From positions 620,001 to 684,000 of the forward strand of contig JAVTLE010000016.1 in the NCBI GenBank assembly GCA_033439295.1: a DNA stretch of 64,000 nt, written 5' to 3'. The position numbers and the translations under genes are program-made. Below, in pieces: positions 14,992-64,000 of the stretch; position 1 is the first letter of the stretch; each line of letters begins with the position of its first letter. The stretch comes from Deuterostichococcus epilithicus. Taxonomy: Eukaryota; Chlorophyta; Trebouxiophyceae; Prasiolales; Stichococcaceae. The notes under the pieces were generated by a model. The model had not been told where the DNA came from. It worked only from the letters and a program-made list of their open reading frames with translations, and made no database searches.

Positions 14992-16925
14992 CTAGCGGTT
15001 CTGCCAGTGCGGCCAATGGCGCAGCGGCGGCCGCAGGAAGGCGGTCAGCAGGCGCCGGTCGCACGCGGGGTCGCAGATGAGCAGGTGCGACTGCCGCGGC
15101 GGCGGGGCGGCAGGGCCCACCGCGAGGAACGCTGTGTCGGCCGGCGTGTTGCCGCGAGGCGCCGTGCCCGCCTCCACCAGGCAGCGCAGCGGCGGCGGCC
15201 AGGCCGCAACGTCCTCCACGGTCGTGCAGTCCTGGGGGATTTAGGTACAGGAACTGCCCTGAGGGGTGCAGTCCTGAGGGGTCTAGGTACAGGCGCTGTC
15301 ATGCCGGAATCGAGTGCAAGTCACGCGCCCGCAGCCAGCAAGCGGGGCGCGAGCAGCGGAACGCTGGCCCGCCCCGCTTTCGACCCTCTGCCGCGGGCAA
15401 GCCTGTCCGTGGCGCGCCCTCATGCGATCGACTCCGCACAGCTCGTCCCTCCGCACCCAGCAGCTGGCCTCCGGTTTCTTGACACCGCAAACCGCACCTG
15501 GAGCTTGAGCAGCTGCAGGGCGGGCGGCAGGTCGCGGTGGCTGAGGCGCCAGCCGCCGAGCCACAGGCAGCGCAGCCGGGCGAGGTGCGCCAAGGCCGAC
15601 CCGAGGGACGGGTGCGGCCGCTGCGCGTGCGGCGCGTAGGGCGCCCACAGCGACAGCTTGACCAGCGTGGGAGGCAGCGCCGCCGGGTGCCTGCGCCATG
15701 TTTTAGGGTTCAGGTTTTGGGCTTCGGGCGGGTGAGGCTGTGCACTAGGGTTTGGGATCATGGCTATGCACTGCAACCTGCCCGTGGGCTTGCTGACATT
15801 GTCAAGTGCATGGGTGTGCTGCTGAGCACGCGCCTTGCGCCATCAGAGTAGCATGGCCGGCTCCGTTGGGTCATGCACTTGGCAGGGGCGAGCAAGGGAC
15901 GCATGGTTCAAACAGCTCAGGCCCGTGCCTGGGGATGCCTATGAGGTCGCCGAGGGACTGCAGCGCCGGCCACGCACCGGGCGGCGCCGCGAAGCGGAAG
16001 CCGAACGCCATCTCCGCCGCCGTGAGGTGGCGGCCCGACACGCGCTGGAAGTGCGGCGCGCACAACAGCTGCTGCAGCTGCGGCATTGCGGCAAGGGCAT
16101 AGTCAGGCGAGGACGGGCCTCACCTTGCAGATGTATCATCACGTGAAACCAGTGGTGGCTGCTTGAGCAAGCCGCTGGCTTGACTACTGCTGCAGTGCGT
16201 GCGTGTGTGCGAGGGGCACACTGGCAGAATGGTGAGGAGCGGCATTGCAAGGCTGTCCAGCGTTTCAAGTGCTGCATCGAGGCTCAGGCGCTTGGATCCA
16301 TGAGCATGATCACACGACGAGGGCTGCCACCGCCTAGGCGGCACCTGCTGCGCGGCGCGGCCGTCGGCGGCGTTCAGCTGCAGCGACACCAGCGGCACGT
16401 GCGTATTGGACAGCCACGCCCGCACGCCCGGCCAGCGGTCCCCACCCACGGCCACCGCGACCGGCTCCTCCAGCATCTGCCGCCGCCACCTGCGACAGCA
16501 GGGACCACGACTTGGCGCATGCGCATGAAGTTCAGGGTTTAGCAATGGTCCTGGCCGGAACCCGGCTCCTCTCTGCATGCGTGACGGCTCCAGGCAGAGC
16601 ACGCTTCGCTGGTGTGCATACGTGATGGACGAAGCAAGCGGGAGGCCAAACTCTGCAGACTCCAGCAGCTCCTGCAGCACTGCTGGCAGCCACGGCGCTG
16701 CACTTCGATCCAGGCGGCCCCTCGCATCGAGGTCACAGGACCGGAGCCTCTCGGCCGTCACCTGGTGCAGACGAGGGCGAGCTGCGTCCACTGACGCACC
16801 ACCACCGCGGCGCCGCCCACGCCGGCGCGCAGCGGCGCCGCCGCCATGTGCAGGATCTTGGTGAGCAGGTGCTCGTCCAGGTCATTGACGCTGGGCACCC
16901 AGGCGGACGCCGTCGTGATGCTCAT
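14992..16925 (-). CDS. F-box/LRR-like protein C
   Basis: The first supported exon (16762-16925) reads MSITTASAWVPSVNDLDEHL and continues TKILHMAAAPLRAG to WTQLALVCTR, an F-box-like start. Next comes an exon around 16330-16490 with RWPGVRAWLSNTHVPLVSLQ. Then one around 15930-16090 has LPQLQQLLCAPHFQRVSG, one around 15490-15690 has the LRR run LARLRCLWLGGWRLSHRDLP, and the last exon is 14992-15231, ending at the stop 14992. It belongs to the same general class as the two plus-strand genes but is much diverged. The exon after 16762 is not resolved. The start is uncertain: an upstream Gln-rich exon at 17583-17726 on the same strand could be its true 5' end. Confidence 0.6.
15224..15293 (-). repeat. 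Duplicated 3' splice site of the last exon of F-box/LRR gene C
   Basis: On the minus strand the last exon begins CAG|GACTGCAC at 15231. The same border, with its upstream pyrimidine stretch, recurs 42 bp away (15266-15293), giving two near-identical acceptors in tandem. Confidence 0.8.
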
Positions 16926-18274: not shown

Positions 18275-20782
18275 ATGGGCGAGAAGAAGGCGAAGAACCA
18301 CAAAGACAAGAAGCGCAAGAAGTCTGCCTCTGACAGCGAGCCAGGCGCGTGCGCTCGTCGGTGGACCCATATGGCGGCATGGCCTGTTGCCGCATGACCT
18401 GGTGCGGCATCATTAGCATGACTCGACAGGCTGTGTGACCCCTCGATGCGCAGACTCGGACGATCACAAGAGCAAGCACAGGCACAAGGAGAAGAAGCAC
18501 AAGAAGGACAAGGACAAAAGGAAGGATGCCGCCGCCGCGGCAGAGGAGAAGCGCCTCGTCAAGGAGGCAAAAAAGTTTCTGAAGCAGCGTGAGTGCACAA
18601 CGAAACCAAACGGGTGTCACACCAGCTGCTTTCTGGCAGGCAGGGACAGCGCGTGGATGCTGCAAGGCGGAAGCTGAGCGCTGAGTGCAAGAGGAGTGGT
18701 ACGTGCCATGCAGGTCTCAAGGAGGATGGCGGCGCGCAGCCTTCAGGGCCAGCGGCGCCGGACAACTCCTTACCGCCCGCGGACTTTGAGGTGAACACGT
18801 GGGACCACGCATGCACTGCCGATCGGCAGTCGCTTCAGCGGGGAGTTGAATCGCTGGCCGGTGACGTGCCGCCTGATCTCACAGATGCATCAAGCATCAG
18901 CGAACGCTCCACATCCTAACTTCAGCAAGTGGTGCGGAAGCCCTGCTCTGGCCTTGACGTCTCTTGACCCTGCCTGCCTCAGGTGACGCTCATCAGCGAT
19001 GACGACTATTTTGCCAAAAACCCAGAGTTCAGCGCCTGGCTGCGCGACCTGAAGCACATCCACTTCAATGAGCTGGCCGCAGAGGCGGCGCGGGACCACT
19101 TCAAGGTGGGTTCTGGGGAAGTTCACGTGCCATCACGGTGCAGGACAGTCTACAACGATTGTGACATGGAAGCTCTGCAATGCGTGTCTTCTCTGGTGTG
19201 CTGTTCGTCAGACGGCAGCTGCGTGCGTGATCTGGCTTTAAATGGCGGTTCTTCGTGGCACTGCTGCAGGACTTTGTAGGTCTGTGGAACGCGCTCAAGC
19301 TGCCCGCCCGGCTGTACGCCGGCGTGGATGGCGGCAGCCTGCGACGCACGCAACACTCCTGGGGCAGACTGGGTGAGCACAGCTTTCCAGCGCCAATGCC
19401 CGCACATGCGAGCGATCTCCCATGTGTGCATGTTGTTTCAGCATGCACAGCTACCGAGTTTGAGAGTTTCCAGGTGTCGCCTCCAGGTGGGCAACAGATG
19501 CGCAGGGACACTTGCAGTCGTGGGAGCAGCGGCCCGGACTCGGCCTGCACCGCCGATGTCAGTTCCTCTTGCACTGCCGGAGGCGCCCCCAGCGGCGGCG
19601 CCGTGACGGGCATGGCAGCACCGCAAATGAGTGACTGCGCTGCCGACGACACCGAACCCCTGCTGTCGCGCAGGCGCCCCCGCCGGCGGCGTCGTGAGGG
19701 GCATGGCGGCCGCGGCGGAGGAGGAAAGGGAGGCCGCGGCGGCGGCGGCGGCGGGGCGCGCTGTCGAGCGCCGCAAGTGGAAGGCGGAGCAGAAGGACCT
19801 CCTTGAGGAGATGCTTCCTGCTGCCACCGCCGGCACCAGGTGGGCGCCCGGGAGAGCGGCTTAGTGGGGTTCAGGAGGGCATGGTAACCGGGTAGAATGC
19901 CAAGGATGCGACTGGGGCTAGACCGCAGCAAGGACAGGTGCTACCAGAATGCGCCTGAATGGCAGTGTCGCTCGCCACTGCCGCCTCTGGCGGTATGCAC
20001 ACACACGAGGTCGCCGGCTGCAGAGATCTGCTGCGACGAGGCCACTCGGCCATGCATTGCTGACATGCAACTCCTGATAGCCTGCAGCCCTGAGGTGGTG
20101 CACCTGTCCAGATGAAGCGCTGGCTGCGCATAAGCTTTCCCAGGATGATGTTGATTCCGCAGGGAGGCACGCGTGGAGGCGAAGTTTGCGCGGCGGGAGG
20201 ATGCTAGGGCGCGCGAGGCCAGCCCGGATGTGGTGCACCTGCCCGGTGGCGGCGACGCCATGGGCCTCGGCGACGGCGACAGCTTCCAGGCGGCGCAGGC
20301 CAGGTGTACTTTGCATTCTGTAAATTTCGGTCTTGTTCAAATGCTCGTGTTCCAGAAAGCGCCCAATGAGGGCCGGGGTGCCGGGGTGCTGACTGGGAAC
20401 GTCTTGACAGTCAATGCTGCACCGCGGTTGGACCCGGCAGACTGGTTGCTCTGCTTCGAGGCACAACTGGCTTCTCACCGCATTCGCCTGGGCTCCTAAT
20501 GCTGGCTGCACAGCTGGTACGTTGCAGCTCCAGCTGAGCGGAACAATGTTGGCCAGCTCGCAGGGCAGCGACCGTTTCATAAAGCAACTCGGCCCTGAAC
20601 GGGGTGTGCTCCTGCGCTCCTGCAGGCAGGCCGCGGCATTGCAGCGGCGGGGGCGCTTCGGCGCGGCACGCGCTGAGGAGAACGCCAAGAAGGTGGCGGA
20701 GTACGGCCAGAAGGAGGACGCCACGATGGCGCAGTTCCGCGCGCTGCTGGATCGCGGCCCCATCGCAATCCCCAAGCGCTGA
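18275..20782 (+). CDS. SCI1-like nuclear protein (style cell-cycle inhibitor 1 family)
   Basis: ATG 18275. Exons 18275-18344 (GC-AG donor), 18454-18588, one or two unresolved exons up to about 18900, then 18983-19105, 19270-19372, 19674-19839, 20163-20303 and 20626-20782; the last five join perfectly in phase. The N-terminus is a Lys-rich nuclear-type tract (MGEKKAKNHKDKKRKKSA, later HRHKEKKHKKDKDKRKD). The core matches plant SCI1: ISDDDYFAKNPEFSAWLRDL, then HFNELAAEAARDHFKDFVGL and LYAGVDGG. In tobacco SCI1 is a nuclear/nucleolar protein that restrains cell proliferation. The algal protein has a longer C-terminal part, charged and Ala-rich, ending FRALLDRGPIAIPKR, whose role I do not know. 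Confidence 0.72.
19581..19710 (+). repeat. Duplicated exon start in the SCI1-like gene
   Basis: The exon beginning at 19674 (CAG|GCGCCCCCGCCGGCGGCG) has a diverged copy 91 bp upstream at 19581-19619, inside the intron. It includes the G-rich start and the later GGGCATGGC. Confidence 0.85.
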
Positions 20783-21015
20783 CTGCCATCTCAATCTGCA
20801 GCTGACCCCGCCGCGGCTGACCGGTCAGCCGGCGGCTGATCTGAGCGGTGCTGCGCCGCGGCCCTATCGCCGTCCCCGAGCACGGCTGACCGCCGTCCCA
20901 GTGTGCGGCTGCCTGTGCGGCAACAGCGGCATGCCGGTACCACGTCGCCGGCACCTGCAGCCTCGAGCGCTGCCGGGACCGCGGCCCCAGCGCCATCCCC
21001 AAGCGCGGCTGACCA
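20753..21015 (+). repeat. Two degenerate copies of the SCI1-like gene's last codons in its 3' flank
   Basis: The coding end from 20753 (CGCGGCCCCATCGCAATCCC) is echoed at about 20857 (CGCGGCCCTATCGCCGTCCC) and 20980 (CGCGGCCCCAGCGCCATCCC). Each copy is followed by AAGCGC or GAGCAC and then a TGA. The copies lie after the stop codon, in the presumed 3' UTR. Confidence 0.75.
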
Positions 21016-23268: not shown

Positions 23269-26200
23269 TCACCGATCATCGTTGTCAGAGTAGTGCGGCG
23301 CCTCTTCCGCCGTCAGCGTGCGCTCATAGCCCGGCTTGCCTGACGCGGCATCCGCCAGCACCTGTGTGGGCAACGAACATACAGCACAAGTTTGCGTGCG
23401 CCACCTGCTGTGGCTCTGCCAGATGCGGCAATGCATCTTGAAAGCACTGGACGCCATGCAGAAGCGATTGCAACTGTGGAACACTGAACATGGTCACCGC
23501 AGTGGGCGTACTCAAGCAGAACACTCCTGCGCAGTGTGTTGCTTGACGTTTCTTGAGGCAGCCACCTACTGCCCGCAGCGCGTCTGACGCAGCAGGGCAG
23601 GACGCCCACCTTTGCCAGCTTGGTCCAGTCGACGATGGTGTTGCGGTCCCGTGGCGAGCCTGCGGCGCAGCAACATCAGTAGAGCCGGCGGAGAAGCATG
23701 CACGCCCAGCAGCAGCCGAAACTCATTCGCCACACAGGCCCAAGCCTTCTGTGCAGTGTGCAGCAGGAGTGATAGAGCAAGGCTACATACCACAAGGTGC
23801 AATGTGAAAGGTTGCAGGCTGGCGGCACAAAGGAGCGAAACCCGGCCGACAGGCACCAAGGCACTAAGCAGCTGATTGAAGGCCGCACCGGGTCCGCGCT
23901 TCTCCCAGTCACCGGCCTGCCAGTTCAGGTCGCTGGTGTGCAGGTAGAAGAAGCGCACCACCTTCTCGATGTTGTACGTCGTCTGGCTGTAGTGGTTGGG
24001 CCACCAGCCTGCACAGTGGCGACGTCTCAGCCGCAAGGCCTTGAAGCACAACCAGGGCGCAGACGGAAGGTTCCAATGCAGGTGCTGTTCCCACCCCTTC
24101 GTTCCCGAAGGCCTGAGTTGCGTCGTAAGACTTCCAGGCGGGTGAGCGCCAGCTAAGCGATGCCATATCGGCACTGCAAAGCCTGGTGTGCGCATGCGGG
24201 GCGGCGTGCGAGCTCGCCCCAAGAGCTTGCGGAATGTCGCGCACCTTCGAACTTGTGGGGCCGGATCTCTAACAGCGCCGAGCCCGGCCTCATGAGGAAG
24301 CCGAAGATGAGCGGCGCGCCATGCAGCCCCACCTACGTGTTCACAGCCGCGGCGGTGTCAGCAATTAGGGAGCATGCAACCCCACCTGCGGAGTCACTGG
24401 GGCCAGCTGTGTCAAGAATCCAGCATCAGTGCTCTGTGGCGGCAGCACCACGCTCTGAAGCACGGCCCTTGCGGCTGTCTTGTGACAGTAGCAACCTGCG
24501 CCATCCTTCCTTTGCTATGCGATATCATATACAATCGATCATGTGCAAATGACACTGCTACCGAGAGAATTCCCAAGCTGCGGAGCCCGGCTCCGGGCTC
24601 GACAAGCACTGAGCATGGACTTGTTGTTGGTGCACAGCTTCCAAGCCTGCTAAAGCCCAGCCGCCATCAGTCTCGATGGTTGTACCCCAAAGCCTGGCAG
24701 CACTGCCAGCTGCCGTCTGCTTCTCCAGCAGGCTGACAGCTTGCCCGACAGAGAGAGCCATCCGTACAGCGCGCCACCTGTGATGTGGGTGCGCTGCAGC
24801 GCTGCCAGGTGTGCCAAAAAGTGTCAAAAGGTACACAAAAGAACCATGCAATCGGCGCACCATGATGTGGGCGCGCTGCAGCGCCGCCAGGTCCTCCAGA
24901 AACGACCCATCCTGGAACTCTATGGTGCGGCAGCGCGCAGACCTGTAGCCGCCAACGCCCGGCGCCCAGGCGTTGCACGCTGCCAGCACCTGCTCCATGT
25001 TCAGCAGCCGCCGCGAGCCGTGCGGCCGGTAGATGATCAGGATCTGCGGTGGAATTGCGTGAGCCTGTGGTCAGGGGCCTTAGGAAATTGGCATCCAACT
25101 CCAAATTCACTGGGCTTGCTGGAGATACATTTGAAGCAGTCAGCGGCTGCTCCATGTTCAGCAGCTATTGCGAGATGTGTACTGATGAGGAAAGCAGAAC
25201 TCCAGAGAGGGAGTCTGCGTCAGAGGTTTGCCGAGCTGCCAGCCTCCGGCCTTTTACAGAATATTAGGGTTTTGGAATGCAATGCGCGCAAAGCAAGGAA
25301 GCTTAAAGAAGCAGCGGCAGAACTGGAAGCCGGCTTGCGAAGGTGTGATTGCAGACGCACCTCCAGCACGTCCTTGGCGGCGTGCTGCTTGAAGCGCTGT
25401 GGGTAGCGCTGCCGGTAAAAGTTCACTACTAGTTGCCCCAGGGCAGCAGGCCGCATGGCGGCCCTACAGGTGGCAAGGAAAGGACAGTAGCCTCTGTGAG
25501 GCGACATACAACGCAACAGCACCTGGAAGCAAGCTAAATGCGGCCGAGGCTCTGACTGCAGCCCAATCACACAGCTAAAGTGCATGCAGCCCTGAATGAT
25601 GCAGCACGGCCTGTCACCCGCAGGTCGATACAAACTGTGTGGCGTCTCTCTCCCAGCCGCGACATATAGTGAAACGCGCCAGCAGGCACCGAGCCTGACC
25701 TGCGGCAATCCGGGATGTATTCACTTTTGGGGCCATTCGGATAGGGCTTCACGGACCTGTAGTCCTCGTTGGAGATGCCGCGCGGCGGGCTCATGTTGTT
25801 GTGCAGCGCGCACAACATGACACGGCGGAAACAGCGGCTGCGCTCCGGCGCCGCCGCATGCCGCCGCGCCGACAGCTCGTGGAGCTCCTCTGCCTGCAGG
25901 CGCCACCAGGGTTTCAAGAGGCTATGCCCTCCAGTACACAAGCGGGGAGCAGCCCGGAGGACACTATCAGCTCCAATCGCCTCGAGGCAGATCCGAATTT
26001 AGGCTCCAGGACGCACAGATTGGCGGGCTGCTATGCTGTCGGCGACCCAGGTCTGCGGCCTTGGCGCATGTGACCGATGCTGGTCAGGACCCGCTACATG
26101 CGAAATTTGGAGCGCCCCAGATTCCTCAAACCACATGTGCAAAATGGACACGTGTTCAGGTAAGCCTCGCCGACGGAACGTGAGCAAGATGCGGTGCATG

Positions 26201-28058
26201 CCTCACCGGGCGCTGTGAGAAGGGGAACAGCAGCCAGTGGTAGAAGTCGGGAAGCTGGAAGCCATCGGTGACTGGTGTCAGCTTGGCAGACCGGTCCAGC
26301 AGCAGCGGCGCCACGGAGCCGGCAGCGGTCATCTTCCAGAGCGGCTCCAGGGTGTCTGTCAAAAATTCGCCCACGTTCATGTACCTGCAGCACAAAGGGG
26401 TTTTGACTCCAGGGTGAGGAGATCGTTTGTGAAAATCTTTAATGACGGTGGTGCACATCTTCCACAGCGGCTTCAGGGTGTCCGTCCGATATGCCCCCAT
26501 GTTCATGCACCTGCGAGAAACAGAGGGGCGCATGTTGAGCGGAAATGACAAGAACAAACCAGTAGCCGTCATCTTCCACAGGGCTTGGGGGTGTCCATCG
26601 GGAACCTGCCCACCTCCTGTGGCTGGGAAGCAGGGGGTAACGCAACCGTCCACAGCGGGCAAGTGAACAGTGGTGGGATGGGTGGACTGATGAGGGACTG
26701 CGCCTCTTTGAGCCCCTGCTCCCACCTCAGCACACCTGACTGGACCCGGAGGGTGGGGGGGAGGGGAGGGGGGGGGTTCTGNNCNCTGCGCTGTCTGCCT
26801 CTGCGACTCAGCACGCCTGTACTTATCTGGGGTGGAGGGCATCGCATGCAAGCAAGAGTGCGGCTCCCAGCGCCTGGGGGTTTGCTGCATCACCAACTCT
26901 TCTCTGCAGCTCCCTCTGAAGAGGTTCCCAGCGGCTCGTGTGGACACGGCTGTGTCCAATTGGCGCACCAGTAGGGCCAGAAGACGACGGGCACGGTGCA
27001 GCGCGAGAATCGGGGCGCCGCGACGTCGGGCTGCTCCTGGCGCAGCGCCGCCGGCCGGAAGCGCGGCTGCGGCTGGCAGTAGTGTATCTCGTACGGGCCC
27101 TGTGGCGCGCAGGGTTTAGATGTTGTGCAAGGGTTGAAGTGGTTTGTTTGACGCTTGCCCAGGCAAATCTCCGGCAAGACCTCGTCGGGAACGCCGGGCA
27201 TCTGCAGGGACAGTAACTGTGCTGCTTGCAGGCAAACGTGTGCTGTTCAAGCGGCACACACACTCCCACGAGTCAGAATTGCGCCAGCATGGCCGCCAGC
27301 AGCCTGCAGTTGGCACCTGCAGCGCATCTGGGTGACCCGGCAAGGCGGTTGGCGCGTTGTCAAAGCGCCACGCCACTTCGCTGAAATTGCCCGCGCCCGG
27401 CTGATGGTGTGGCGCCCAGCTGATGAAGCGCCCCTGCGTGGATGCACGGCGCGTTTGCCGTCTCACGAGTGCGGCGGTCCTCTCTGCACACGGCCGCACG
27501 ACCAGAGTTGCAAAGTCGGCGCATGGGTGATGCACTGCTGCCCTCCCTCCATTACAACACCGGCCCCGAGGCGAAACCTGCAGCATCCGCTGCTCTACCG
27601 GGTACCTGATCGATGCACAGATCGGTCTCGATGTGGCAGCGGTGCACGCCCAGGCTGGTCTCGTTGATCGCCGGCGGCTGACACCCTGGCGCATCCCACT
27701 CGTCTGCGAACCCGCATCTCGGCATCACAGCACCACCGCAGCAGCATGTCCTCGTGAATGTTCACTGGTATCATGCGTGACTGCATTGCCCATTGCTCGA
27801 CGCAGCGACTGCCAGCCAAGTTGGGCGCCTAAATTGCCTCGATGTTGGCAGGATACGCATTTGGCACATGCAACGGTCACCTGTGGTGTCTGGCCTGGCT
27901 GTGGGTGTGCCCTGGAGCGCAGCCGCCGTGTCCACGCTGCCGCCGCACGTGCCACCTCCGCCTGCACCGCCCCGCAGGAAGAAGTGCTGCACGAAAGCCG
28001 TCAGCAGCGCAGCGGCGGCGGCGGCCGCTACGCCACCGCACCTGCCGCGGCCGCGCAT
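23269..28058 (-). CDS. GT61-family glycosyltransferase B, type II membrane protein
   Basis: The first ATG in frame is 28056-28058, followed by a basic stretch and a signal anchor (GGVAAAAAAALLTAFVQHFF). Exons 27881-28058, 27606-27703 (98 bp) and 27317-27433 (117 bp) match copy A in length, phase and protein (LCIDQ; ISWAPHHQPGAGNFSE). Further exons include EQPDVAAPRFSRCTVPVVFW (about 27000), DGFQLPDFYHWLLFPFSQRP (about 26240), RRCFRRV-type text SRCFRRVMLCALHNNMSPP (about 25830), YRPHGSRRLLNMEQVLAACN (about 25000) and the GT61 signature VGLHGAPLIFGFLMRPGS (about 24320). The C-terminal part has TYNIEKVVRFFYLHTSDLNW (about 23960), RDRNTIVDWTKLAK and a final exon ending at stop 23269. It probably transfers a sugar to secreted glycans in the Golgi. 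It keeps the HG motif that copy A lost, so it is the better candidate for an active enzyme. Confidence 0.8.
24770..24892 (-). repeat. Duplicated exon end and donor site in GT61-B
   Basis: The exon end coding for LAALQRAHIM and its GTGCGC donor (24851-24892) is repeated at 24770-24810 as LAALQRTHIT followed by GTGGCG, about 82 bp downstream on the minus strand, now in the intron. Confidence 0.8.
24990..25174 (-). repeat. Duplicated fragment of the LLNMEQ exon in GT61-B
   Basis: A 19-base identical core, CTGCTCCATGTTCAGCAGC, occurs at 24990 and 25148, with similarity continuing a few bases (CGCGAG against TGCGAG). One copy is in the exon and the other in the neighbouring intron. Confidence 0.8.
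26325..26630 (-). repeat. Tandem triplication of a splice acceptor plus exon start in GT61-B
   Basis: On the minus strand three units about 120 bp apart read MNVGEFLTDTLEPLWKM (26325-26385), MNMGAYRTDTLKPLWKM (26450-26512) and a more worn VPDGHPQALWKM (26570-26620). The first two are preceded by CAG|GTACATG or CAG|GTGCATG. Only the most downstream unit continues into the long exon ending SQRP. The others look like extra, perhaps unused, exon starts. Confidence 0.85.
26782..26785. other. Ambiguous bases in a GT61-B intron
   Basis: Three N positions after a G-rich run (from about 26750). They lie outside the exons I can define. Confidence 0.9.
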
Positions 28059-29124: not shown

Positions 29125-32100
29125 ATGGATGCCCTACGGGCGCGCTCCGGCCCCAGGAGGCGGCGCTTCCGAAATCCCGCGTGCCTGGCGGCGCTGGTGG
29201 TGGCGGTCGGGCTGACGGCCTTCTTATTGGTCGCTAACCTCGTCTGGACCGCCGCTGCGGGGTCTGAGGCGCCGTCGCTGCTTAGCCTGGTGCGTGCGAA
29301 CACGGAAGGACACACGCACACTATTTGCTCAAAAGATGATGGCAATGCGCTGACGCAGATGCAGTCATTTCAGCCCCACAAAATGAGTCAACTGTCCATC
29401 AACACAAGGACGCAATGACACGTTTGCGGCACGGCACCACGGTTCATCGTTCAGGCAGTTGCACACGGTTGCCGACACCATGAGGCATGCCAGCCCCTTT
29501 GAGCCCTCGACGTGCAGCTCAACAGCTACTTGAACTTCCTGCCGGCTGGGTACGGCGGCTCGAGGCACCACGCCAGTGGCGCCTCGGCGGTCGTGGCGCG
29601 TGAGGCCCTGGAGACGCTTACAGCGGCGCTTGCAAAGGACGGCGGCAGCGGCGGCAACGGCGGCAGCGGCGGCGCCGGCGCGGCGCAGCACCTGCAGTTT
29701 CTGCGGGTGAGTAGACTTTGGTGGAGCAGGGCCAGGTAGCGTGGTAGTCCCTACTGCACAGCCGCTGTCCAGCTGCTCGACGCTTCCAGTGCTGGCACGC
29801 AGAGCGAGCGGCGGCGCAGGTGCCTTCATTCTCATTGGGAGCCATATCCACAGTCGCCTGGTCAGGGTCGACGGGGAACTGGTGTGTGCATTATGAACAT
29901 CATTTGCTTAACCTTGTGGAACACCAACTGGAGCGGACAACTTCACCCACACCTGGAGCGTTTGAGGAGATCTCGGAGTGTGCAGTGCTTGAGAGGGTGC
30001 ACATTCCCTGCCGCTGCAGGACCTCGTGGACAGCCAGCAGCATCAGGAGGATGCAAAAGCACGACTGACGGCGGACGCCCGGCAGCCCGGCGCGTCATCG
30101 GGTGCCACCACTGGGTCATCAGGTACTTGGCCACTGACATTTGGGCTCGCTACAAGGCCTGCCCTTCGGAGCTGCATGTCGTCAGGGCACGCATCTGCGA
30201 TGGCACCTTCACAGCCGGCCTGCGGTGCTGGCCTCGATTGCCGTCTGCCTGTCCGATGCTCGAGCAAGCCATGTCAGGCACTCACACCGAGGAACAAGAC
30301 ACTGGCCCTGAAGCCAGTGCCAGATCTTCCCAGGCGTGTTCATGTGTTTGAGCCGCGCTCTTGCAACTAGGGATAACCTAGCACCAGCTCCGATTCCTGC
30401 AGTCAGCACCGAGGGCGGCTTCGCCTCGATGTTCGGCTGGCTGACGGGCGGCGGGAGCGACGGCGACTCCGGCGCTGCCAGTGGCGCTAGCTCCGGCGGT
30501 GACCAGCTTTCTACAGGGACAGCCCGGCTGCCAAAGGTACTTGTTATAAGACCCCCTGAGCACGGCTACAAATCCTGTGTGTTCCTTCGAGGCAAACAGC
30601 CATTGCGCGCTATGAGGGGTTCAGTGGTTAGAAATGCACAGCTGGAAGTCAAGACGACAGAACAAAGCAGACGCGCATGCCTCGTCTTTGCAGTACTCTG
30701 CAGCAGATCAGCGTCAGGGCACTCGGCACATGCGGCGCAGGTGCTGCCGCCAGATGTGGCAGCGCGGTGCGAGGGCACCATCGGTGGCTGGTGCGGGCGC
30801 TACCTGCTGCAGGAAGAGATTCCCACCAAGGCAAGTGCCAGCCTCCACATCTGGTCCTGGCCATCTTCCAAGGCCTTGACGGAAGCCGCTGACGAGCTGC
30901 ACAGCTGCCAGCAGTGCAAGTCGAGTCTGTGGATGCTCCGGCCACGCGAATCCGACGAATCGACACCTAGGGCAATTGCCCCTGGTCTCGCCAGCGCAAG
31001 CTTTGCTGAGATGGACGCAAAAGGGTACAATAGAAGCTGCGCGACATCTTCTCACTTCTCGCTCCGCAGCCGCCACCGCGCGGCAGCCTGCAGTGCGCGC
31101 ACAACTGCAACGGCGTCGGCAACTGCCACGCCGGCTTCGGCTACTGCCAGTGTCCTGCAGGCGCGACCTCCTTGGCTCTTGAGCGCCTGGTCACCGGCCG
31201 CCATCCCCTCCAACTGCATTTCGGCGACCCACGGCAGGATGCAAGCGCGTTGGCTGTCTGTCTGCACAGCGCCCTGCCAGGCTCCGAGACCGCCCGGCAT
31301 GCTGCCATGTGGCGTGGCCCGTCAGGAACCCTGAAGCCTGTTTCCCGGTGGCCCACTGCAGGGTGGACTGGGCCGGACTGCATGACGCGGCAGCGGCGGC
31401 CGTGCACCAATGGCGTGCGCGGCGAGGGGTGGGCGCCGCGGGAGAACCCGCCCACTCTGTCGGAGGGCGGCTGGATGGCCTCACGCTGCGCAGGCATGGC
31501 ACCCTGAATCACCCGCCCACCCATACCGGCACACGGGTCCCTACCGGAAACTTGCAGCTACGGGCATTGAGCGCGGGTCGCTCCATGCAGGAGGGTCATC
31601 CACTGCAGCCGTCATGGGAGCAGGGTCTTGTCGCACCCAGCAGAGCTTAAGCCCTCATATGAGGAAGGAGCTTGGGCGCCTGGCTGCAGGCGTGTGCGAC
31701 GACGACATTGCGGCATGCTACTGCGCCGGCGACAAGTACGGGCGCATCCCCGCGCCCGAGGGGTCGCCGCCTGGCACGCCCCCCGTGCGCCGCGGCCGCC
31801 CCATGATCCTGGAGGCCTGCATGCCCATGTATGGTGAGCTAGACCCTGAAACTTCCTCTTCAGGCTGCAGGTCCAGTATGGCTAGCATGAGGTTCGCTGC
31901 TCCCTGCCCTCACGACCCTGTGGAATGTTGCACGCCGCTGCAACCGTGCAACATCCGCAGGGTGTATTCTTTCGCCCAGAGCCCTCTGCATGTGCCCCCA
32001 GGTGAGGACGGAAAAAGGAACAACTGGGGCCACGTGGAGAACCACCTCATCCTGGGTGGCGACGGCTGGTGCAACGCAGACAGGCCGGAGCACAGGTGCG

Positions 32101-44700: not shown

Positions 44701-44868
44701 CCAGGTGCCGCATCCTTCTGGCTAGCATGGTTCCATGGGCACCACACCCTGAAGACCTACCGTCTCCAGCAAAACTGTCTTAATCCTGTGCGGCTGATGT
44801 CTGTGTGGCACCTGTTCGTGTTGCTGTAGCCAGCCAGCCAGCCAGCCAGCCAGGCGCTTCGCCGCCGG

Positions 44869-44901
<33 letters not shown>

Positions 44902-45081
44902 ACACAGAAGCAGTTCTAGCACTGCTGCCAGGCGTGGCGAGTGACTGCAAGGCTGTTTGTTGCGTAGGGTGCGGGCGCAACGAAGGCGGATCCAATAGGC
45001 AACAACCTGGTGACCTTCGACTCGGCGGAGGCCACCAATGTGGCCTTCAGGCCAACGCTGACAATCTACAGCACCTCATGA
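38707..45081 (+). CDS. Secreted glycosidase-like protein (GH-A-type barrel) with C-terminal CBM96/DNRLRE modules
   Basis: ATG 38707; a cleavable signal peptide is plausible (MLAAALLLLLGAALPRQATS). Exons 38707-38915, 39144-39235, then about fifteen more, checked for phase where possible. The catalytic part reads WMGVNYARLFVNTRTDLRP (39170), KVPVVFRWWERLDDSK (39700), GIATLMVLQL (40010), IEIYNEPNLDALRPGCA (40660), YYYGVRYFQTSP (41590) and FPVDITEYAVNSATSFE (41660). The Asn-Glu-Pro and the later ITEY glutamate match the acid/base and nucleophile of clan GH-A enzymes; the exact family is not clear. From 43370 a CBM96-like module begins (KKYIPTDDATVKAGAASGSN, then FGSQKTLQVRLS and ALLKFNL), continuing to VTFDSAEATNVAFRPTLTIY before TGA 45079-45081. 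It is probably an extracellular polysaccharide-acting protein. Confidence 0.75.
44829..44905 (+). repeat. (AGCC)n and (CTG)n microsatellites in an intron
   Basis: Six AGCC units followed after a short gap by about ten CTG units, in the intron before the last CBM96 exon. Confidence 0.9.
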
Positions 45082-46249: not shown

Positions 46250-49200
46250 TACTTCTTCACACCCCAGGCGTGTACGCCGCGAGCACCCGGGACGAGCGAC
46301 AGACGGATGGCAGGCAGGCATGGCGGCGGATCTTTGCACATCCACAACTTGCAAACCTCTGCAAACAATGTACAGGCAGCTCTTGTTGAGGACCGAAAGA
46401 GCCGAGAACGTGTCGAAAGGAAGCTTTTGTAAGAGGAGGCGCGCACCGATCTGCATGGGGCGGAACAGTTCGTTACCATCCATCATGCGGAAGGGGGAGT
46501 CCGCTGGCAGCGCCGCTACCTGCGCCTCCTCCAGCCCGCCGCTGCCCGCCTCCCCCATGTCGGCTGTACGTGAGCAGGATGGAGAATTTAGCAAGCCGGC
46601 GGTCCAAAAGAGTGGCCTGGCGGTCTTGTGTGCCAGTGCCGCCTGCCTTTGCAAGCCTACCCCGTGTTCGCTGGAGGAAAGGCAAGTTGCCACCATCAAT
46701 ACGAGAAGGAAACATCCGGCCGCACTTGGGCCCGCACAAGGTAGTAGTGGAAGCAGAGGATAGGTTCGAGATCCGACACGACAAGAATGGACAGCAGGCC
46801 CCATTTGACGCAAGGCGTCTGGCAGCGGGGATGCACATCCAGAGTCGACGAGCCAGCGCCATCGGCCACACGACAACGCACCCGCGAGCACGTTGCACAT
46901 CGCCAGCGAGTCGGTGGAGTGGGGAAAGGCGGCCACCAGACCCGCTGCCTCCTGCCAGGGGGCCAGCAGGTCCTCATGGACTGCCTGCCAGTAGGCGACG
47001 ACGGCTGCCCGCTCTGCATCCAAGTTGCCGCGCAGCTCCTCCGCAGCTTGGGCGGCCTGCGGTTCGAGATGGACGAGGTGAAGCCGCGAAGAGGTCAGCT
47101 ACATGATGTGGTCCCTGGGTGCTGCGGCATAAGTTGCACCTCTGCCACCGCAGCAGGCGGGACCTCATCATACAGCCGCCCTCATGTGTGCTGAACTCGT
47201 CGTTGGTCGGCTGGCTGCCGGTTGCCTGGCTCTCCTCCAGGCACCTCAACAGCACAGCGATCGCGTCCTTGGGCAGCATCGATGTTTCAGTATGTATGGT
47301 ATTGCGCGAGGGGCGCGGCGGCCGCGCGCGGCGGCCGCCATTCCGTCAGGAGCGCACGTTAGCGGGGCGCGTGTGGGGCCCTACAGGCGTGCCGCACCTG
47401 CACGAACTGCACGTTGGCGCACAGGGTGTCGCGCGCCGGCGCTGCGGGGGCCGCTGCTGCCAGCATGTCCACGATGCGGCCGCGGTGGCGCATAAGCGCC
47501 CCCATGTCGCCGAGCAGCCGCCTCCGGGCGTCCAGCATCCCCCGCCGCTGCGCCTCTGTGAGCTCCATCGCCGCCTGGACGCAACGACGCAAGGATCAGG
47601 GTCTACCCCACACAGCACGAGCGTGTCGCGGACGCTTCTGGACGCGGCAACTTAAGAATCAGGGACTGAGGCCCCCAGACGGCATGAGCCTGTCTTGAAT
47701 CCGCCTGGACGCACCAATGCAAGCATCAGGATGACAGGCTCATGCAGCATGAGCCTGTCGTGCATTCAAGATGATGCGGAGTGGGGCTGGTCGGCAGCGG
47801 CCGGTCCGCCCTCCCCCTCCCCGGCGCAGGGTTAGTTGCTGTCCTGCGCCGCGGTGTCGCCAGCGCAGCATCCTGTGCCATCCGCATGTGTCCACGCCGC
47901 TCGAGCTCGCTGAGCATGGGGTCGCGTGCACGAGGCGCGGCGCGATGCCCCGTCCGCTGCCGGCGCACACAGCCTGAGACCGCAGCTTGTTGTCTGTCTT
48001 TCAAGGAGGGATGCCCATCTCACCAGGGTGCGGCGCCACAGGGTGGGTGTGCGCGGCCCCAGGCGCGCCTGCTGCTCGTCGTGCAGCGCGTCGAACTGCG
48101 AGGGGGGCACCTTGTCTGGCCCCTCCGGCCGCCACACCCATATCTTGTCCAGGTCCCCCGGTGTCTCCTGCTTCAGCCACGCCCAGGTCTGCGCGCAAGG
48201 GTGCAGGTTTCAGGCGTGCACCGTCCTCGGCTGGGCCGCCAAGTGGGCTGTGGATGGGTGCTGCGGAATTGTAGCAGTCGTCAGGCTGCGCCGTGGGCGA
48301 CGCGTGCGGCAGATGGGCATTGGCGTCCAGCGGCTCCTCGGCCGACTCCTCTCGTTCAGTTGGTGACTCCGAGGACAGGACGTTAGCAAGCTGTGGACAG
48401 CGCTGGGGGCCTTGAGAGGCGACCCAGATGCGTGCAAGCAGTTACCTGCGGCAGCAAGGTATGTGGGTGGGTGCAAATGTGAAGGCGGAACCACACCAGG
48501 CGGAAGGGGCGCATGATGCGGTGGTAGCCAACCAGCTGCGCCAGGCGCTGCCCGGCGGGCGAGGCCTCATTGCGGGCGCCCTCGTTCAGCAGCCCCTCCA
48601 ATATGTCCTTCATCTCCTGCACCGTGGCGGGGGGCACACGATCAGGAAAGCAGTGCAAGAGGTTGCGCCCTTAAGGTCGCGCCGTAGGGAATCAAGCACC
48701 TTCGGGCTGTCGTTTGAGGACAACCCATTCAGCACCTCTTCCCATCTCCTGCGAGCGGCGGGCGTGCAACAGCGGCTGAGCAGTCAACAGGGTCTGATGC
48801 CCTTGCAACACAAAGCCCAACACTGCAGAAGGCTTCATGAGCAGCTTGACCGGGGCAGCTGTGGTGGACGTCGATGCCGCCTCAGGTGTCCATCTCTGGT
48901 GTCGTGACCTCCGCCCCGAGCATGTTTGATGGACCCGCCCAGGAGTCTTGCATGCGACGTGCAAAATCCACTGGAGGAGGTGTTGCAAACAGCAGCACAT
49001 GCAGGGCCAGCACCTCGAGAGGAGTCTTTGACGACTCGTTCCTCACTTTCACGTGAGATTACCAAGTCGAAAAGCGACCAGAGAACAGAAAGTAGCAAGT
49101 CGAGGCAGCGGCACCCGCGCGAGGCCCAGCACCTCAACGGCATCCTCGGACTGCTTTCTCACTGGTTGTTCTTGAGACTGACATCTCGCATGGCATACTG

Positions 49201-51770
49201 GGAATTTTGGGAAGTCCCAGTGAATCGTTGTTGGGACTGACATGTTGGGAGACGTTGGGGACTGGTTCTCAATCGTTGTTGAGACTGACATCTCGGGGAA
49301 TATGGGGCAGTGGCACCTGTGCGAGGCCGAGCATCTCGATCGCGTCCATGGCCTCCACTTCGGCGATGGTGACGGGCTCCGCCTCCCGCCGCCGCATGAG
49401 CGTCAACACCTCTGCCATCCGCGCCTGCATGTACTGCCGCTCCTTCTGCTGCTTCCGCCGGTGCTCCTCCTGCTCGCATCAGGGTTTCGGAGTTGGGCCG
49501 GGATGTGAGCGCCAAGTGAGGGGGCCTAGGAGTCCTGCACCAACGATGACTGGTGCGGACTTGGGAGGCCGCAGAGCCTGCTGCCATCCTGCTTCCTGCT
49601 TCCCCTCGAGACCCGCCCACAGGGCTGGTTCCGCTTCGAGCCTGGGTCGCACGCACAGGCACTCCTTGGGCGGGGAAACCTGTCAGGGAATCAACATGAC
49701 AGCCGCGGCACCTGGGCGTAGATGGCCGCCTGCGACGGCGCCGTAGGCTGCGCGCCCTGCAGGCTGGCCACCTTCTGCAGCAGGCTGTTGCGCGCCTCGA
49801 GGTCTGACGCCTCCACCTCCAGCGACGCCACCTTGCTGCTCAGCTCCGCGATGCGCGACTCGGCCTCCGACATCTTCTCCTGTTGTTGGATGCACCATCG
49901 AATGCTGTCGGTGAACACAAGGATGGCGAGATGGCGGGCGTGCAAGGGAGGGGTCGTCCGTCATGGGAGCCTGAAGCGACCATCGCCCGCAGTCTTGCTG
50001 GCGAGATCAACAGGTGCAACGAGTTCACACGGACCGTCGAGGGTATGTGTGGCGCTCAGCTCAGCTCTTTGCAGTTGCTGACAGTGCACACAGTTCACTA
50101 CACAGGCTGTCGGGATGAGTCGATTGTAGAATGGCGGAGCGGCAGGCCGCATCTGGCTGGAAGACGCTCGCCTTCTTGCGGCGGCGCGCATTGGCCTGCG
50201 CCCGCCGGTTCTTCTCGCGAAGCATGGTGTGACGCCGCTGCTCCTTGGCCGTCGCATCTGGGTCCGCACTGCCGGCCGCATCGCAGCTGCCGTCCGTGGG
50301 CGCGGCTGCTGGCTGCGGCTGCGGCGGCGATGGCGACGAGTTGAGGCTCACCATCGCATGCTTGCGGCGGCCGCGCACAGCCGGCGCGGCCTTGGCCGGG
50401 CCAGCGCGCAGCCGCTGCGCGTTGGCGGCCTTCACTGCCGATTGCCGCTGCCGCTGCTGCGACAGCGGCGGCGGCGCCACCTGCTGCTCCTGCTGCAGCG
50501 GCAGCGGCATCACGGCCGCTGCCGCGGCCGGCTGCATCAGGCCGTCGCCCGGCTGGCTCTGCGGCACCCCGCCGGCGGAGGAGCAGCTGAGCGACACGAC
50601 CTTAGGGTGGGTGGGGCTGCCCAGCGACCTCCCAGCGTCTAGCGGGGAGCACCAGGAGGTGTCAAAGCCCGGCGAAAGGTAGGAGCCCTGCTGCGAGTCG
50701 TGCGACCCGACGCCGCTGCTGCTGCTGCACTGGCCCCTGCCGGCGGGCGTCTGCTGCGCCTGGACAGGAGCATCGCCGCCGCTGCCGCTGCCGCTGAAGA
50801 CATCGCTGGGCCGCAGCACCGCTGCGGCGTGACTGCCGGGCTGCTGCGGCATGCTGAAGTAGTCTGACGATGCCGGCTGGAAGGCGTTGACATCCCGCTG
50901 CGGGCCCGGGGGCTCAAAATCAAACGACGATGCCATTGCCCCAGCGTCCGGTAGACGCACGCCCTGCAGCGATCCGCCGAGCAGCTGCTGCATGGCATCG
51001 GAGTACGGAGGGCCGTCGCACGCCCCCATGCCGTACTGGCCGCCAAGGCTGCCCAGCTGGGGGTACAGCTGCTGCTGCTGCTCCAGCTGCTGCTGCTGCC
51101 GCTGCTGCAGCTGGATCTGCTGCCGAAGGTAGCTGGGCTGCCCGCCATGGCCGCATGGCTGCTGATACATCATGTGGTCAGCAGGTGGCGCCCCACCGTA
51201 AGGCGACTGGTGCGCAAAGGGCTGCTGGAGCTGCGGCTGCATGCGGGCCGGCTCAAAGCAGTCACTGGATCCTGGCCGGTGCAGGCCGCCAGCGCTGCTG
51301 CCGTCAAAGCCCGGCATATCGCCAAGCACCTGGCCAGCGGCGCCCAGAAGGCCGCTGCATGCTGTCATGTGCAGCTGCGCAGCGTACGCCTGCTGCGCGG
51401 CCGCCTCGGCGGACTGCTGTGGGATGGGGTCGCTGAAGGACCTGCCGTGCACGTTGCCCGCATTGACTGCAGCACTGCCGCCGCCGCCAGCTGCCTGCTG
51501 CGCATCCGGAGCGGAGCGAATGCCAAAGCCGCCGGCGCTGGTGCGCTGCTGCCGTGCAACGGAGGCCGGTGCGGATGCCAGGGGCGGCAGCAGGGTATGC
51601 AGTGGGGTTGCCAACAGATCCCCCAGCTGCAGCGAGGGCGCCCTATCAAAGTCCAGCGTCCCGTCGGCCGTGAGCACCGCATCGATGAAGCTGGCGCCCT
51701 GCGAAGTCGGCGGCGCGGGGAGGCGGCTACCCGGCATTGGGGCTGTACCAGGCTGCACGTCCGCCTGCAT
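46250..51770 (-). CDS. bZIP transcription factor with long Gln-rich N-terminus and algal C-terminal domain
   Basis: ATG 51768-51770. Exon 1 (50172-51770) gives 533 residues rich in Gln, Ser, Pro and Ala, with LYPQLGSLGGQYGM between poly-Gln tracts, ending in the basic region REKNRRAQANARRRKK. Exon 2 (49712-49879) continues EKMSEAESRIAELSSKVASL, then EVEASDLEARNSLLQ. The N-x7-R spacing is right, and Ala-Leu-Leu-Leu-Leu fall at exact sevens across the junction, confirming the splice. Later exons: 49317-49472, 48497-48616, 48024-48188, one near 47850-47960, 47398-47574, 47140-47267 and about 46900-47085. They are helical and charged, ending ERAAVVAYWQAVHEDLLAPW, a tail I associate with green-algal bZIPs. 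It should bind DNA as a dimer in the nucleus. The first intron starts GCGAGC. The last exon and stop (46130-46580) are unresolved. Confidence 0.78.
49108..49345 (-). repeat. Duplicated exon end and donor of bZIP exon 3
   Basis: The end of exon 3 (49308-49345; EMLGLAQ then GTGCCA on the minus strand) recurs in the following intron at 49108-49145 (EVLGLAR then GTGCCG), 200 bp apart. Between them the motif TTGAGACTGACATCTCG also appears twice (about 49170 and 49280), with a third worn copy near 49230. Confidence 0.8.
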
Positions 51771-61488: not shown

Positions 61489-64000
61489 TCAGCGCCGGCT
61501 GCGGTGCGGCTCCTTGCTGTCCTCCTTGTGGCTCTTTTTGTGCTTTTTTGACTTTTTGAGGCCACCGTCGCCATTGCCGTCTGCCTCGCCTCTGTGCCGC
61601 CTGTGGCCTTTGCTGCCGCCGTCGTCGTCATCACCCATGCGGCGCCGCGGAGGCGAGCCATCCGGCGCCGCTGCCGCGCCAGCCACAGCACCGCGCGGCC
61701 GGCCGCTGCCAGATGCGTGCTGCGCATCTTCGCTGCCGCGCCGCCGCTCGCGCCGCGGACTGGCGGTGTCGCGAGGCCGCGCCCCGCCGTCGTCCCGCTC
61801 GTGGCGCCGCCGCTGCGGATCCCCGTCCCTATTACGCCGCCACTCGCCATGCCGCTCGTGGCTTCCCCCCTCAGCTCTCGTCCTCTCGTCCCTCCGCGCG
61901 CCGTCCCTGCGCGTGTCGTCATGTTGCTGGTCGCTGCTGCGGGGCTCGCGCCGCCGCTGGTCCGCCGGCGTTCCCTCACGCTGCCGCTGAGCGCCGCGCC
62001 TGTCGGGGCGCTCCTGCCGCGGCGGCGCCGATGGCCGCTCCAGGTGCGCGTCCGCTGCCGGGCCAGCACCGTCACCGCCGCCGCCATCCAGAAGGAGGTC
62101 GTAAGCGCGGCCGCCGTGCTGCGCCGGTCGCCGGTGGTCGGACTGCGTGCAGGGTACAGGAATAACGGTGGGACGGGTTGGTGCACACACGGATGCACCA
62201 TCAGAAGTAACTGTTAAAAGTTGTTGAATGCAAGGTCTTCGGACTTTGGTGCAGCAATAGCTGTTGGCGGCTTAAATTCTCCCTTTCAGGCGGCATGCAA
62301 GCGGTCCAGCAGTAAGTGCTGAATAGCAGCACACACGCTTGAGAAGCCGCCTCCCTGAGAGCTGCGTTCCTTCCAGCAGCGAAGAGAGGCGGCTGCTCAC
62401 CTTCAGCGCAAGCACGCTACCAGCCATGTTGGCGGCAGCACCGCCGCCGGGACCGCCGCCGCCTCTGGCGCCCTTGTTGGGGCACTCACGAGCCATGTGC
62501 CCCAGCTGCCCACACTCTGCAGCAGGGGATGCCAGGTTTTTAGAAGTTTCTTTGGCGCCCCTGTCAGGGCAATCACGTGCCATGGCCCAGCTGGTTGCAC
62601 TCTGCAGGCAGCAGCACGTGTGCCAGCCGTCAAAGAGAGACGGCTTCATTTTTCTCAAGGAAGCACAGGCAGCGGCAGTCAGCAGCAAGCCTTAAAGCAT
62701 TGCGCTGATGTGCCGCTGCGAGCAAGATTCAGAGCATCGCGCTGACATGCCGTTCCGTGCTTGATGCATCACAAGACAGGCAGGCAGCGGCAGAGCCGAC
62801 TTGGCGGCCAACAGTTGAAAGACTAGTGCCATCGTGACGCCATGCGCTTGCAGCAGCACTGTGCAGGTTTTCACCGAAGCAGCCGCCGCCACGGCCGCCG
62901 GGCACGCCGGAGTTGGCGGACTCGCCCGCCGCGGCATCCGCCTTGTTGCCAAAGGTCTTGAACTGGCGCCACAGGTGGCTTACACTCTGGCTGAAGTCCA
63001 CCTGCGCGGACGGGGACACAGACTGACAGATGGGTCAGGAAAAGACGAAGAAGAAAACCGGGAGCACGAGGCCTCGCTCCCTTGCCTCACGCCTCGTCCC
63101 CAGCAGCAGCAGCAGTCGCGAGGCGACAGGGAGGCTGACTCTGTCCAGCGACACGGTGGATGTGAGGATGTTCGATTCGTGGCACCAGCAGGGGGTCGCG
63201 CCTTGATGCGGCGGTCGTCGATGAGCACGTTGTTCATCTTGAAGTAGGCGTCCTCAGACGACTTGTCGTTATCAAAGCCGATGAAGGCATATTGCAGGCT
63301 GTCGCCTGCGAAACATGGCACACGGCAGTGTGTCTGAGGCAGCCTTCCAGGGAGGCCTCCACACCCTGGTGAAGTCGGTGATGCCATGGGCATGAACATT
63401 CTTGTGGCACCGGCTCTGAAGGTTGCACAACAGCTGCAGACCGCCGCGGGGAATAATAACGGCATCCTCATTGCATTGACATTCCTGGTTGCGCTGCCTT
63501 GCTCGCTGTCATGCTCTCGGTGTCCTGAGGGCGCGCCTGTCTTGTAGTCGCGGATGATGTCGCAGGAGGTGATTTTGCCGAAGCGGGAGAAGATGATCTC
63601 AAGATCCTCCTCTGTCGTCACCTGCACTTGCAGCGGCCCAGTCAGCATGACCTGACATGGTCAGCTGCATCAGCGGTCAGCTGGTTTTGCAGCCGCGGCT
63701 CGCACTGATGCAATTCCCGCCACACTCGAGCTTCCGGCGGTGACGTGTGACAACTGGGCTGGTTCCTCGGCGGCCAGGGCTGGGCGGGTCGCGCTGGGAC
63801 GCTGGGGGTAGATGGCACTCAGCCGATGACAGGGGGCCTAATCATCCTGGAGATCAGACAGGAGGTCACATTTGAAGTTCGGGGCTTCAGGGGTGTTGAA
63901 GGTCAGGTCGGCAGGACCTCACCTGGTTGAGCTTGCACACGAACAGCATGTTGGTGGGCGGCTTGCTGTCCGCCTCCGGCAGGTCGCCAATCATCTCCAG
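61489..64000 (-). CDS. CYP59: CYP59/PPIL4-type nuclear cyclophilin: RRM, CCHC zinc knuckle and RS/RD-rich tail (5' part outside window)
   Basis: Exons on the minus strand, all in phase: 63923 to beyond 64000 ([13 protein letters not shown]), 63537-63621, 63202-63305, 62875-63001, 62401-62516 and 61489-62142 (stop). They encode an RRM ([59 protein letters not shown]). A zinc knuckle built across a splice ([17 protein letters not shown]2CX4HX4C) and a long Arg/Asp/Ser/Lys-rich tail ([20 protein letters not shown]) follow. This is the layout of Arabidopsis CYP59 and human PPIL4, nuclear peptidyl-prolyl isomerases tied to RNA polymerase II transcription and splicing. The cyclophilin domain itself must lie beyond the right edge. 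Both RRM introns begin with GC (GCGCGC, GCGCGA) rather than GT. Confidence 0.88.
62463..62607 (-). repeat. Duplicated zinc-knuckle exon of CYP59, one copy decayed
   Basis: The used knuckle exon (62463-62522 with its CAG acceptor) has a tandem copy at 62550-62607, about 86 bp upstream on the minus strand. The copy keeps the acceptor and phase but is 2 bp shorter in the knuckle core, so splicing it in would break the frame soon after its Cys. It is best read as a dead spare exon now inside the intron. Confidence 0.8.

Follow-up and report, generated by a model that had tools for sequence, protein, structure and literature searches.

In the 64-kb window of the Deuterostichococcus epilithicus genome analysed here, introns of F-box/LRR C, an SCI1-like gene, GT61-B, a long predicted gene, a bZIP gene and CYP59 hold diverged copies of nearby exon sequence, either of exon interiors or of exon edges, and we refer to the latter as ghosts (Table 1). 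All nine pairs that a first-pass annotation of this DNA had cited as local copies do align, and four further exon-intron pairs had escaped it (20085/20220, 35537/35694, 44486/44565 and 47571/47701). One GT61-B copy had been described as lying within an exon; by the gene model, the second copy (25141-25165) belongs to the upstream intron.

Table 1. Local copies in the window (positions in the window; strand in brackets; lag in nt)
Gene	Used border or original	Copy	Exon or intron	Identity	Lag
Upstream of F-box/LRR B	97-bp true tandem duplication, 9810-9994			72/87; ungapped 68/88; 16 mismatches and 3 gaps over 93 aligned nt	
F-box/LRR C (-)	Used acceptor border 15224-15251	Intronic copy 15266-15293	Exon 14992-15231	25/28	42
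SCI1-like (+)	Used acceptor border 19669-19710	Intronic ghost of exon start 19578-19619	Exon 19674-19839	36/42	91
SCI1-like (+)	Exonic original 20220-20244	Intronic copy of exon interior 20085-20109	Exon 20163-20303	22/25	135
SCI1-like (+)	Last exon end, 20741-21014	Two more copies downstream, post-stop: 20845-20891, 20976-21014		45/51 in first alignment; 29/37, 31/36, 28/31	
GT61-B (-)	Used donor border 24863-24892	Ghost 24781-24810	Exon 24861-25043; 528-nt intron 24333-24860	28/30	82
GT61-B (-)	Exonic original 24984-25008, 35 nt inside exon	Intronic copy 25141-25165		23/25	157
GT61-B (-)	Used acceptor border 26330-26388	Ghost acceptor and exon edge 26456-26514	Exon 26207-26384; 584-nt intron	59/71; 49/59 ungapped	126
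Predicted gene 29125-45081 (+)	35694-35726	Intronic copy of exon interior 35537-35569		27/33	157
Predicted gene 29125-45081 (+)	44565-44607	Ghost acceptor and exon edge 44486-44528		33/43	79
bZIP (-)	Acceptor border 47571-47600	Ghost 47701-47730	Exon 47398-47574	26/30	130
bZIP (-)	Donor border 49306-49337	Ghost 49104-49135	Exon 49317-49469	27/32	202
CYP59 (-)	Used acceptor with start of the zinc-knuckle exon 62463-62522	Ghost 62550-62607	Exon 62401-62516	48/58	

In the gene models, it is the outer member of a pair that serves as exon border, while the inner one is the ghost. The zf-CCHC match of CYP59 starts at the exon whose edge is copied. In GT61-B, the ghost acceptor scores 5.7 (7.0 for the used one), and a further copy suspected by eye near 26570-26607 fell below threshold in the pair test. 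The best-scoring bZIP pair in the first alignment (34/37, gapped) is entirely intronic and is not the border copy.

Local pairs were scanned in 294 kb, consisting of the window plus 23 other stretches of the same genome, with exon and intron borders taken from predicted gene models of a self-trained ab initio HMM. The pair cut-offs (score 17 and dinucleotide entropy of at least 3.0) were chosen by us and excluded 10 low-entropy events; with the entropy filter removed, there are 63 near events against 4 in two distant bands. Three events that the HMM places exon-exon (L004 886, L022 649 and L024 5159) were counted as ghosts in later tests because one copy resembled an extra edge, and three other exon-exon events (L006 9330, L007 2198 and L017 6844) were set aside, being protein repeats. 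The exon-intron count does not include the bZIP donor pair, since this had been joined to an adjacent intronic repeat, and L003 9767 was typed as an acceptor in the intron-remainder, splice-site identity and far-exon tests, and as a donor in the spacer and splice-score tests.

We found 21 near pairs (lags 20-400) in the window, against none at lags 3000-3380 and none in one dinucleotide shuffle. The comparison of exon flanks with their own introns that the first-pass annotation had proposed does give an excess in the 294-kb sample: 21 of 1180 flank-intron comparisons match, against 2/11,740 with other introns and 0/1180 when reverse-complemented, and among 590 introns there are 20 in which a copy of the adjoining exon edge can be recognised. 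Exon-intron pairs number 32, against 21.6 by random placement (7/5000 permutations), and 22 against 15.6 expected in the 23 other stretches alone (96/5000). The copied pieces are 25-95 nt long in most pairs, in direct orientation, and lie mostly 79-175 nt from the original; within this lag bin, which was defined post hoc once the lags had been inspected, 27 of 33 events are exon-intron (expected 15.4; 0/3000) and 2 are intron-intron (expected 9.2). Border copies recur across the genome as had been proposed, at least one of 33 pairs being carried by 13 of the 23 other stretches, and the window is not exceptional, with 9 exon-intron pairs at lags of at least 79 for 6.7 expected from the 23 stretches (P=0.23). 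The observation is confirmed as real and not peculiar to this window.

That the copies are an artefact of assembly or of the self-trained gene models is scarcely credible: most copies diverge by 5-28%, unlike assembly echoes (a single pair shows no difference over its 31 nt), and in GT61-B, the L003 gene and the L010 gene Pfam domains span junctions that bear a ghost. Templating by mRNA or cDNA is not supported either, the ghosts showing no continuation into the far exon: over 32 pairs, the flank matches the edge of the far exon at an identity of 0.42 in the first 10 nt and of 0.28-0.32 thereafter. In L003 9767 and L023 the 'far exon' is itself one of the copies, and the remaining local scores lie under the control maximum of 24.

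Concerning the consequences for introns, the first-pass annotation had suggested that local duplication both makes and feeds them. Feeding is supported, as introns with copies are longer than others (median 418.5 nt against 227.5; length-weighted 292). The making of introns by local duplication of AG|GT segments has been described (PMC3443670, PMC2891723 and PMC4974935), and a border duplication in potato yielded a new intron (PMC4974935). Here it appears highly improbable, with no one-period signature above controls. Aligned in register over 587 introns, donor and acceptor regions share on average 20.41 of 60 positions, against 20.35 in random pairs (maxima 30 and 32). A looser local test gives 6 of 473 introns scoring at least 28, against 4/2830 controls; the six comprise one ghost pair, four cases of repetitive protein sequence and one intron, L008 6957-7176, whose borders are alignable 10 nt off register (score 33) and which may speak for intron birth. 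The lag-82 pair of GT61-B can be rejected as a newborn intron because the modelled splice 24861 -> 24332 (residue 409) falls within the Pfam GT61 match (326-429) and the ghost-bearing intron is shared with the paralogue GT61-A (alignment column 447, phase 0), where it is shorter. This shared intron is a single case.

The majority of ghosts lack the appearance of a tandem duplication preserved whole across a splice border; identity between the copies falls at the splice site. The claim of tandem duplication holds for a minority, 11 of 33 pairs passing at least one of four tandem tests, and fails for most, whose spacer is unrelated. It might be argued that the pairs began as plain tandem duplications spanning a border, 80-175 bp in size, and were neutrally eroded, the exon half remaining readable because one copy is constrained while the intron half was lost. 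The direct orientation fits this reading, as do a full tandem at L009 4019, unit homology in L008 4677, L022 649, L024 5159 and CYP59 by the spacer test (p 0.027 in CYP59, where the intron-only test gives p 0.41), and the addition of L010 434, L010 2240, L014 1907, L006 89, L008 9084 and L023 by other tests. However, each test singly stays under the rates obtained with simulated tandem duplications, namely 4/32 pairs plus one full tandem for spacer homology (64-91% in simulations of equal age), 5/30 for the intron remainder (74-97%) and 6/33 for a third unit-homology test (78-82%, or 47% in the harshest setting). A model of neutral tandem duplications whose ages are uniform fails for the majority of pairs. 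A simulation in which all events are old (0.1-0.2 substitutions per site) with 0.8 indels per substitution approaches the data (4.9 exon-intron events for each intron-intron event, with spacer homology at 26%), yet such a burst conflicts with the low indel to substitution ratio of 4:51 measured in nine non-coding true tandems. Moreover, young pairs also lack unit homology (L014 2127, 31/31; L003 9767, 39/41), and tandem pairs of such size are rare within introns (2). Overall, we consider the plain tandem reading somewhat unlikely. Recent paralogues that could calibrate intron decay were sought by DNA searches of the genome with three gene regions, and the sole match other than the query was a 102-nt piece of GT61-A (75%).

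Ghost acceptors match used ones in strength (median 5.6 against 5.5), 13 of 18 scoring at least 2, compared with 15% of random intron sites; identity between copies at -4 to -12 is 0.58, against 0.36 for unrelated acceptors, and the eight donor-type pairs retain some intron-side similarity at +10 to +49 (0.31-0.40 against 0.25-0.28). Ghosts might have been retained from old duplications as alternative or decoy splice sites, within poison or regulatory exons, with the exon edge and the acceptor surviving as the intron sequence becomes saturated. Acceptor strength and a similarity that declines from exon to acceptor to intron agree with such retention, and nine ghosts are called by the HMM as a small exon or part of one, seven of them a multiple of 3 in length, although this is expected because the HMM favours in-frame additions. 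Ghost mismatches, on the other hand, are even over codon positions 1, 2 and 3 (16.2, 16.0 and 18.6%; 69/426, 67/419 and 79/425), and 119 codon changes are nonsynonymous against 48 synonymous, and donors after ghost acceptors are not in excess (39% against 33% at a score of at least 3, P=0.19), which argues that most ghosts are not complete exons. We regard retention as quite improbable, and reject ghosts as coding duplicate exons; functional alternative exons under coding constraint are not supported. The splice phase that the copies were said to keep is little informative, since an exon edge brings its own phase along; exon-intron lags fall 10/13/9 at 0/1/2 mod 3, without frame bias.

The reading that we tentatively prefer, with less than even confidence, is local DNA copying that places pieces of exon edge into the adjoining intron. 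A minority would be tandem duplications across the border (about 5/33 in the local test, to which one full tandem is added, or 11/33 when any one of the four tests suffices). The others, which end near the splice site and have an unrelated spacer, would stem from short-range, same-strand template switching, in which a patch is copied before synthesis returns. Selection would remove copies that break exons and complete splice-site duplicates close to the used site, and the outcome would be longer introns with splice sites in reserve, and no birth of introns.

Template switching also predicts inverted copies, of which two were found (in a seeded scan that differed from the one for direct pairs) and none in the 1180 flank tests, as well as copies of intron by intron, of which there are two at lags 79-175; given this scarcity, the preference for exons is unexplained under template switching. 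Strong ghost acceptors are unexpected from chance patch ends unless the acceptor was copied too, and the intron-side similarity of donor-type pairs, like the 11 pairs passing some tandem test and the ab initio nature of the gene models, counts against patch copying.

It is also conceivable, though we hold it to be unlikely, that a genome-wide mutational process carries exon sequence into the neighbouring intron as far as the splice junction and hardly past it. If so, exon specificity would imply guidance by splicing, nascent RNA or splice-site motifs, and the process would steadily supply intron length as well as spare splice sites; a stop at the junction that is mutational rather than selective would point to a connection of splicing signals with DNA copying. 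Intron growth and the origins of cryptic splice sites are known mostly from single cases. With about one in thirty predicted introns carrying a copy of a neighbouring edge, their rates, ages and fates might become measurable in one genome, and the frequency of ghosts where one-period introns are not seen bears on the idea of local duplication as a main source of new introns.

The systems described in PMC3443670 and PMC2891723 likewise involve local direct duplication with splice-site sequence in genes; there, a duplicated exonic segment becomes a one-period intron, whereas here none stands out among 587 introns and the copies lie inside introns. In the potato RdRp gene, the duplication took in branch site, tract and acceptor, and a new intron was spliced (PMC4974935), while in the alga the intron side is mostly unduplicated and no new intron is seen. 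Short-range template switching (PMC7954356) would share with the present case a switch to a nearby template and a small scale; the copies found here are direct and of exon edges.

The genome (46.79 Mb in 21 contigs; GC of the window 62.5%) is intron-rich, its gene content agrees with the stated algal origin, and we sampled 294 kb of it (~0.6%). The sample comprises the window (positions 620,001-684,000 of its contig), sixteen 10-kb stretches, one from each of 16 large contigs at a single fixed position, and seven further stretches from a random list. Genes were predicted by a two-strand HMM gene finder trained on the sampled sequences themselves, giving 590 introns with both exons (median length 227.5 nt) and a GC content of 69% in exons and 59% in introns. 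Pfam matches were obtained for seven of the eight predicted proteins submitted, the exception being the SCI1-like protein. Pfam domains span the junctions that carry a diverged intronic copy of the adjoining exon edge (a ghost) in GT61-B, in a poly(A)-polymerase-like gene of stretch L003 and in an HRQ1-type helicase of L010, and in both CYP59 and a Sec24-like gene of L023 the domain starts with the used copy.

The local duplication of splice borders reported by the first-pass annotation is real and general: all nine pairs that it cited align, the bZIP border pair included, and beyond the window exon-edge pairs of lag (distance between copies) at least 79 occur in 13 of 23 stretches. An ungapped diagonal scan at lags of 20-400 recovered 21 pairs in the window and 68 in the first 16 other stretches (many are simple protein repeats, and two stretches have none); no pairs appeared in the window and these 16 stretches at lags of 3000-3380, or after one shuffle of each. 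With low-entropy repeats removed, the 294 kb hold 49 events at lags of 40-400, against one event for three equally wide bands at distant lags. Inverted local pairs numbered two in a seeded scan. The comparison of 60 exon bases with the adjoining intron, proposed in the same annotation, reached a score of at least 34 in 21 of 1180 cases; this score was attained in 2 of 11,740 comparisons with other introns matched for length, and in 0 of 1180 when reverse-complemented.

Over the 294 kb, random placement predicts 21.6 exon-intron and 14.5 intron-intron pairs, and we observed 32 (7 of 5000 permutations) and 8, respectively. The exon-intron excess persists in the 23 other stretches when the window is left out (22 versus 15.6; 96 of 5000), and is reduced but still present in a simulation with slower decay where one copy is constrained (P 0.003-0.03, intergenic pairs left out). 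Copies form two populations by lag: 14 of the 21 events at 15-78 are intronic or intergenic, whereas the 33 events at 79-175 include 27 exon-intron (15.4 expected) and two intron-intron pairs (9.2 expected). All exon-intron pairs of lag at least 79, plus three called exon on both sides by the HMM, make up a set of 33, nine in the window and the others spread over those 13 stretches.

Mismatches in the exonic part are even over codon positions (69/426, 67/419 and 79/425), and its 411 codons show 119 nonsynonymous and 48 synonymous changes and two stops, so the inner copy is free of coding constraint. Ghost acceptors equal used ones in strength (median 5.6 versus 5.5) and do not differ either from acceptors with 14% decay (P=0.20); downstream of the ghost acceptors, donors are not enriched. 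Spliced RNA is unlikely to have been the template, because no continuation of the ghost into the far exon edge was found.

The annotation had called these duplications tandem. If the duplicated unit equals the lag, the spacer between copies should match the flank. Local alignment detected such homology in 4 of 32 pairs (p<0.05), with one full tandem besides, versus 64-91% of age-matched simulated tandem duplications; a second test gave 6 of 33 pairs versus 78-82% (47% under the harshest setting), and a third 5 of 30 versus 74-97%. The sets of pairs selected overlap only in part between tests, and 11 of 33 are positive in one or more of the four tests run, so tandem duplication may account for about a third of the pairs at most and fits a minority of them. 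In fixed-lag splice-site alignments, whose profiles are blurred by indels, identity of acceptor pairs is 0.61-0.71 across the first 40 exon bases, 0.36 at -20 to -11 (0.27 for unrelated borders) and 0.24-0.28 at -21 to -60 (0.24-0.26), and the eight donor pairs retain more on the intron side (0.31-0.40 versus 0.25-0.28 at +10 to +49). Old tandems could be masked if indels were very frequent, but nine non-coding true tandems in the sample have 4 indels to 51 substitutions, a figure biased toward long ungapped repeats by the way they were found. Flank homology can be absent even beside near-perfect patches, as in one L014 pair.

Coordinates of individual features (window, or the sampled stretch named)
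Feature	Location	Observation
GT61-A	window 2342-6145	diverged paralog of GT61-B; several intron positions in common
GT61-B	window 23269-28058	
GT61-A intron	window 5132-5260	33-bp unit, about four copies (TRF period 33, score 180)
SCI1-like gene	window 20741-21014	last exon end copied twice into 3' region, spacings 104 and 123
Poly(A)-polymerase-like gene	L003 6291-9923	four exon-edge copies at four borders
Predicted intron	L008 6957-7176	220 nt; donor region alignable to acceptor region (score 33) with a 10-nt register offset
Repeat pair	L013 1956-2171 and 9750-9965	same lag-187 pair twice, 7.8 kb apart, HMM-intergenic
Exon-edge pair	L014 2127-2157/2247-2277	31/31 identical, no flank homology
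Sec24-like gene	L023 6966-7137	nine extra predicted exon bases precede the shared edge in first copy

Such copies were also proposed to make and to feed introns. The latter stands, the 20 introns with a copy in the flank scan being longer (median 418.5 nt) than introns overall. Of the former we see no clear sign: donor and acceptor regions compared in register across 587 introns are no more similar than random pairs. A looser local test of 473 introns gave six at a score of at least 28, compared with four among 2830 controls. Four of the six consist of repetitive coding sequence and a fifth is a ghost pair; the sixth, the L008 intron, may match by chance within GC-rich coiled-coil sequence. 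One intron has an identical alignment column and phase in both GT61 paralogs (222 nt in GT61-A; 528 nt, with a ghost, in GT61-B), and this shared position indicates that the ghost arose after the intron. The same is probably true of a second ghost-bearing GT61-B intron (584 nt), three columns from a GT61-A intron of the same phase (92 nt); both comparisons used the first version of the gene models. Of the two paralogs, only GT61-B showed exon-edge ghosts.

The L003 gene and an L014 gene have the most exon-edge copies per gene in the sample. The ancestral acceptor of the Sec24-like gene is ambiguous because of the extra bases in its first copy, and the L013 arrangement suggests a dispersed repeat.

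Most copies are limited to exon sequence. None of the literature matches listed, which comprise intron-gain work and single cases, treats intronic exon-edge copies as a genome-wide feature. In nine pairs the gene finder itself took the ghost for all or part of a small exon; some of these may be spliced in, as in the potato case of a border duplication (PMC4974935).
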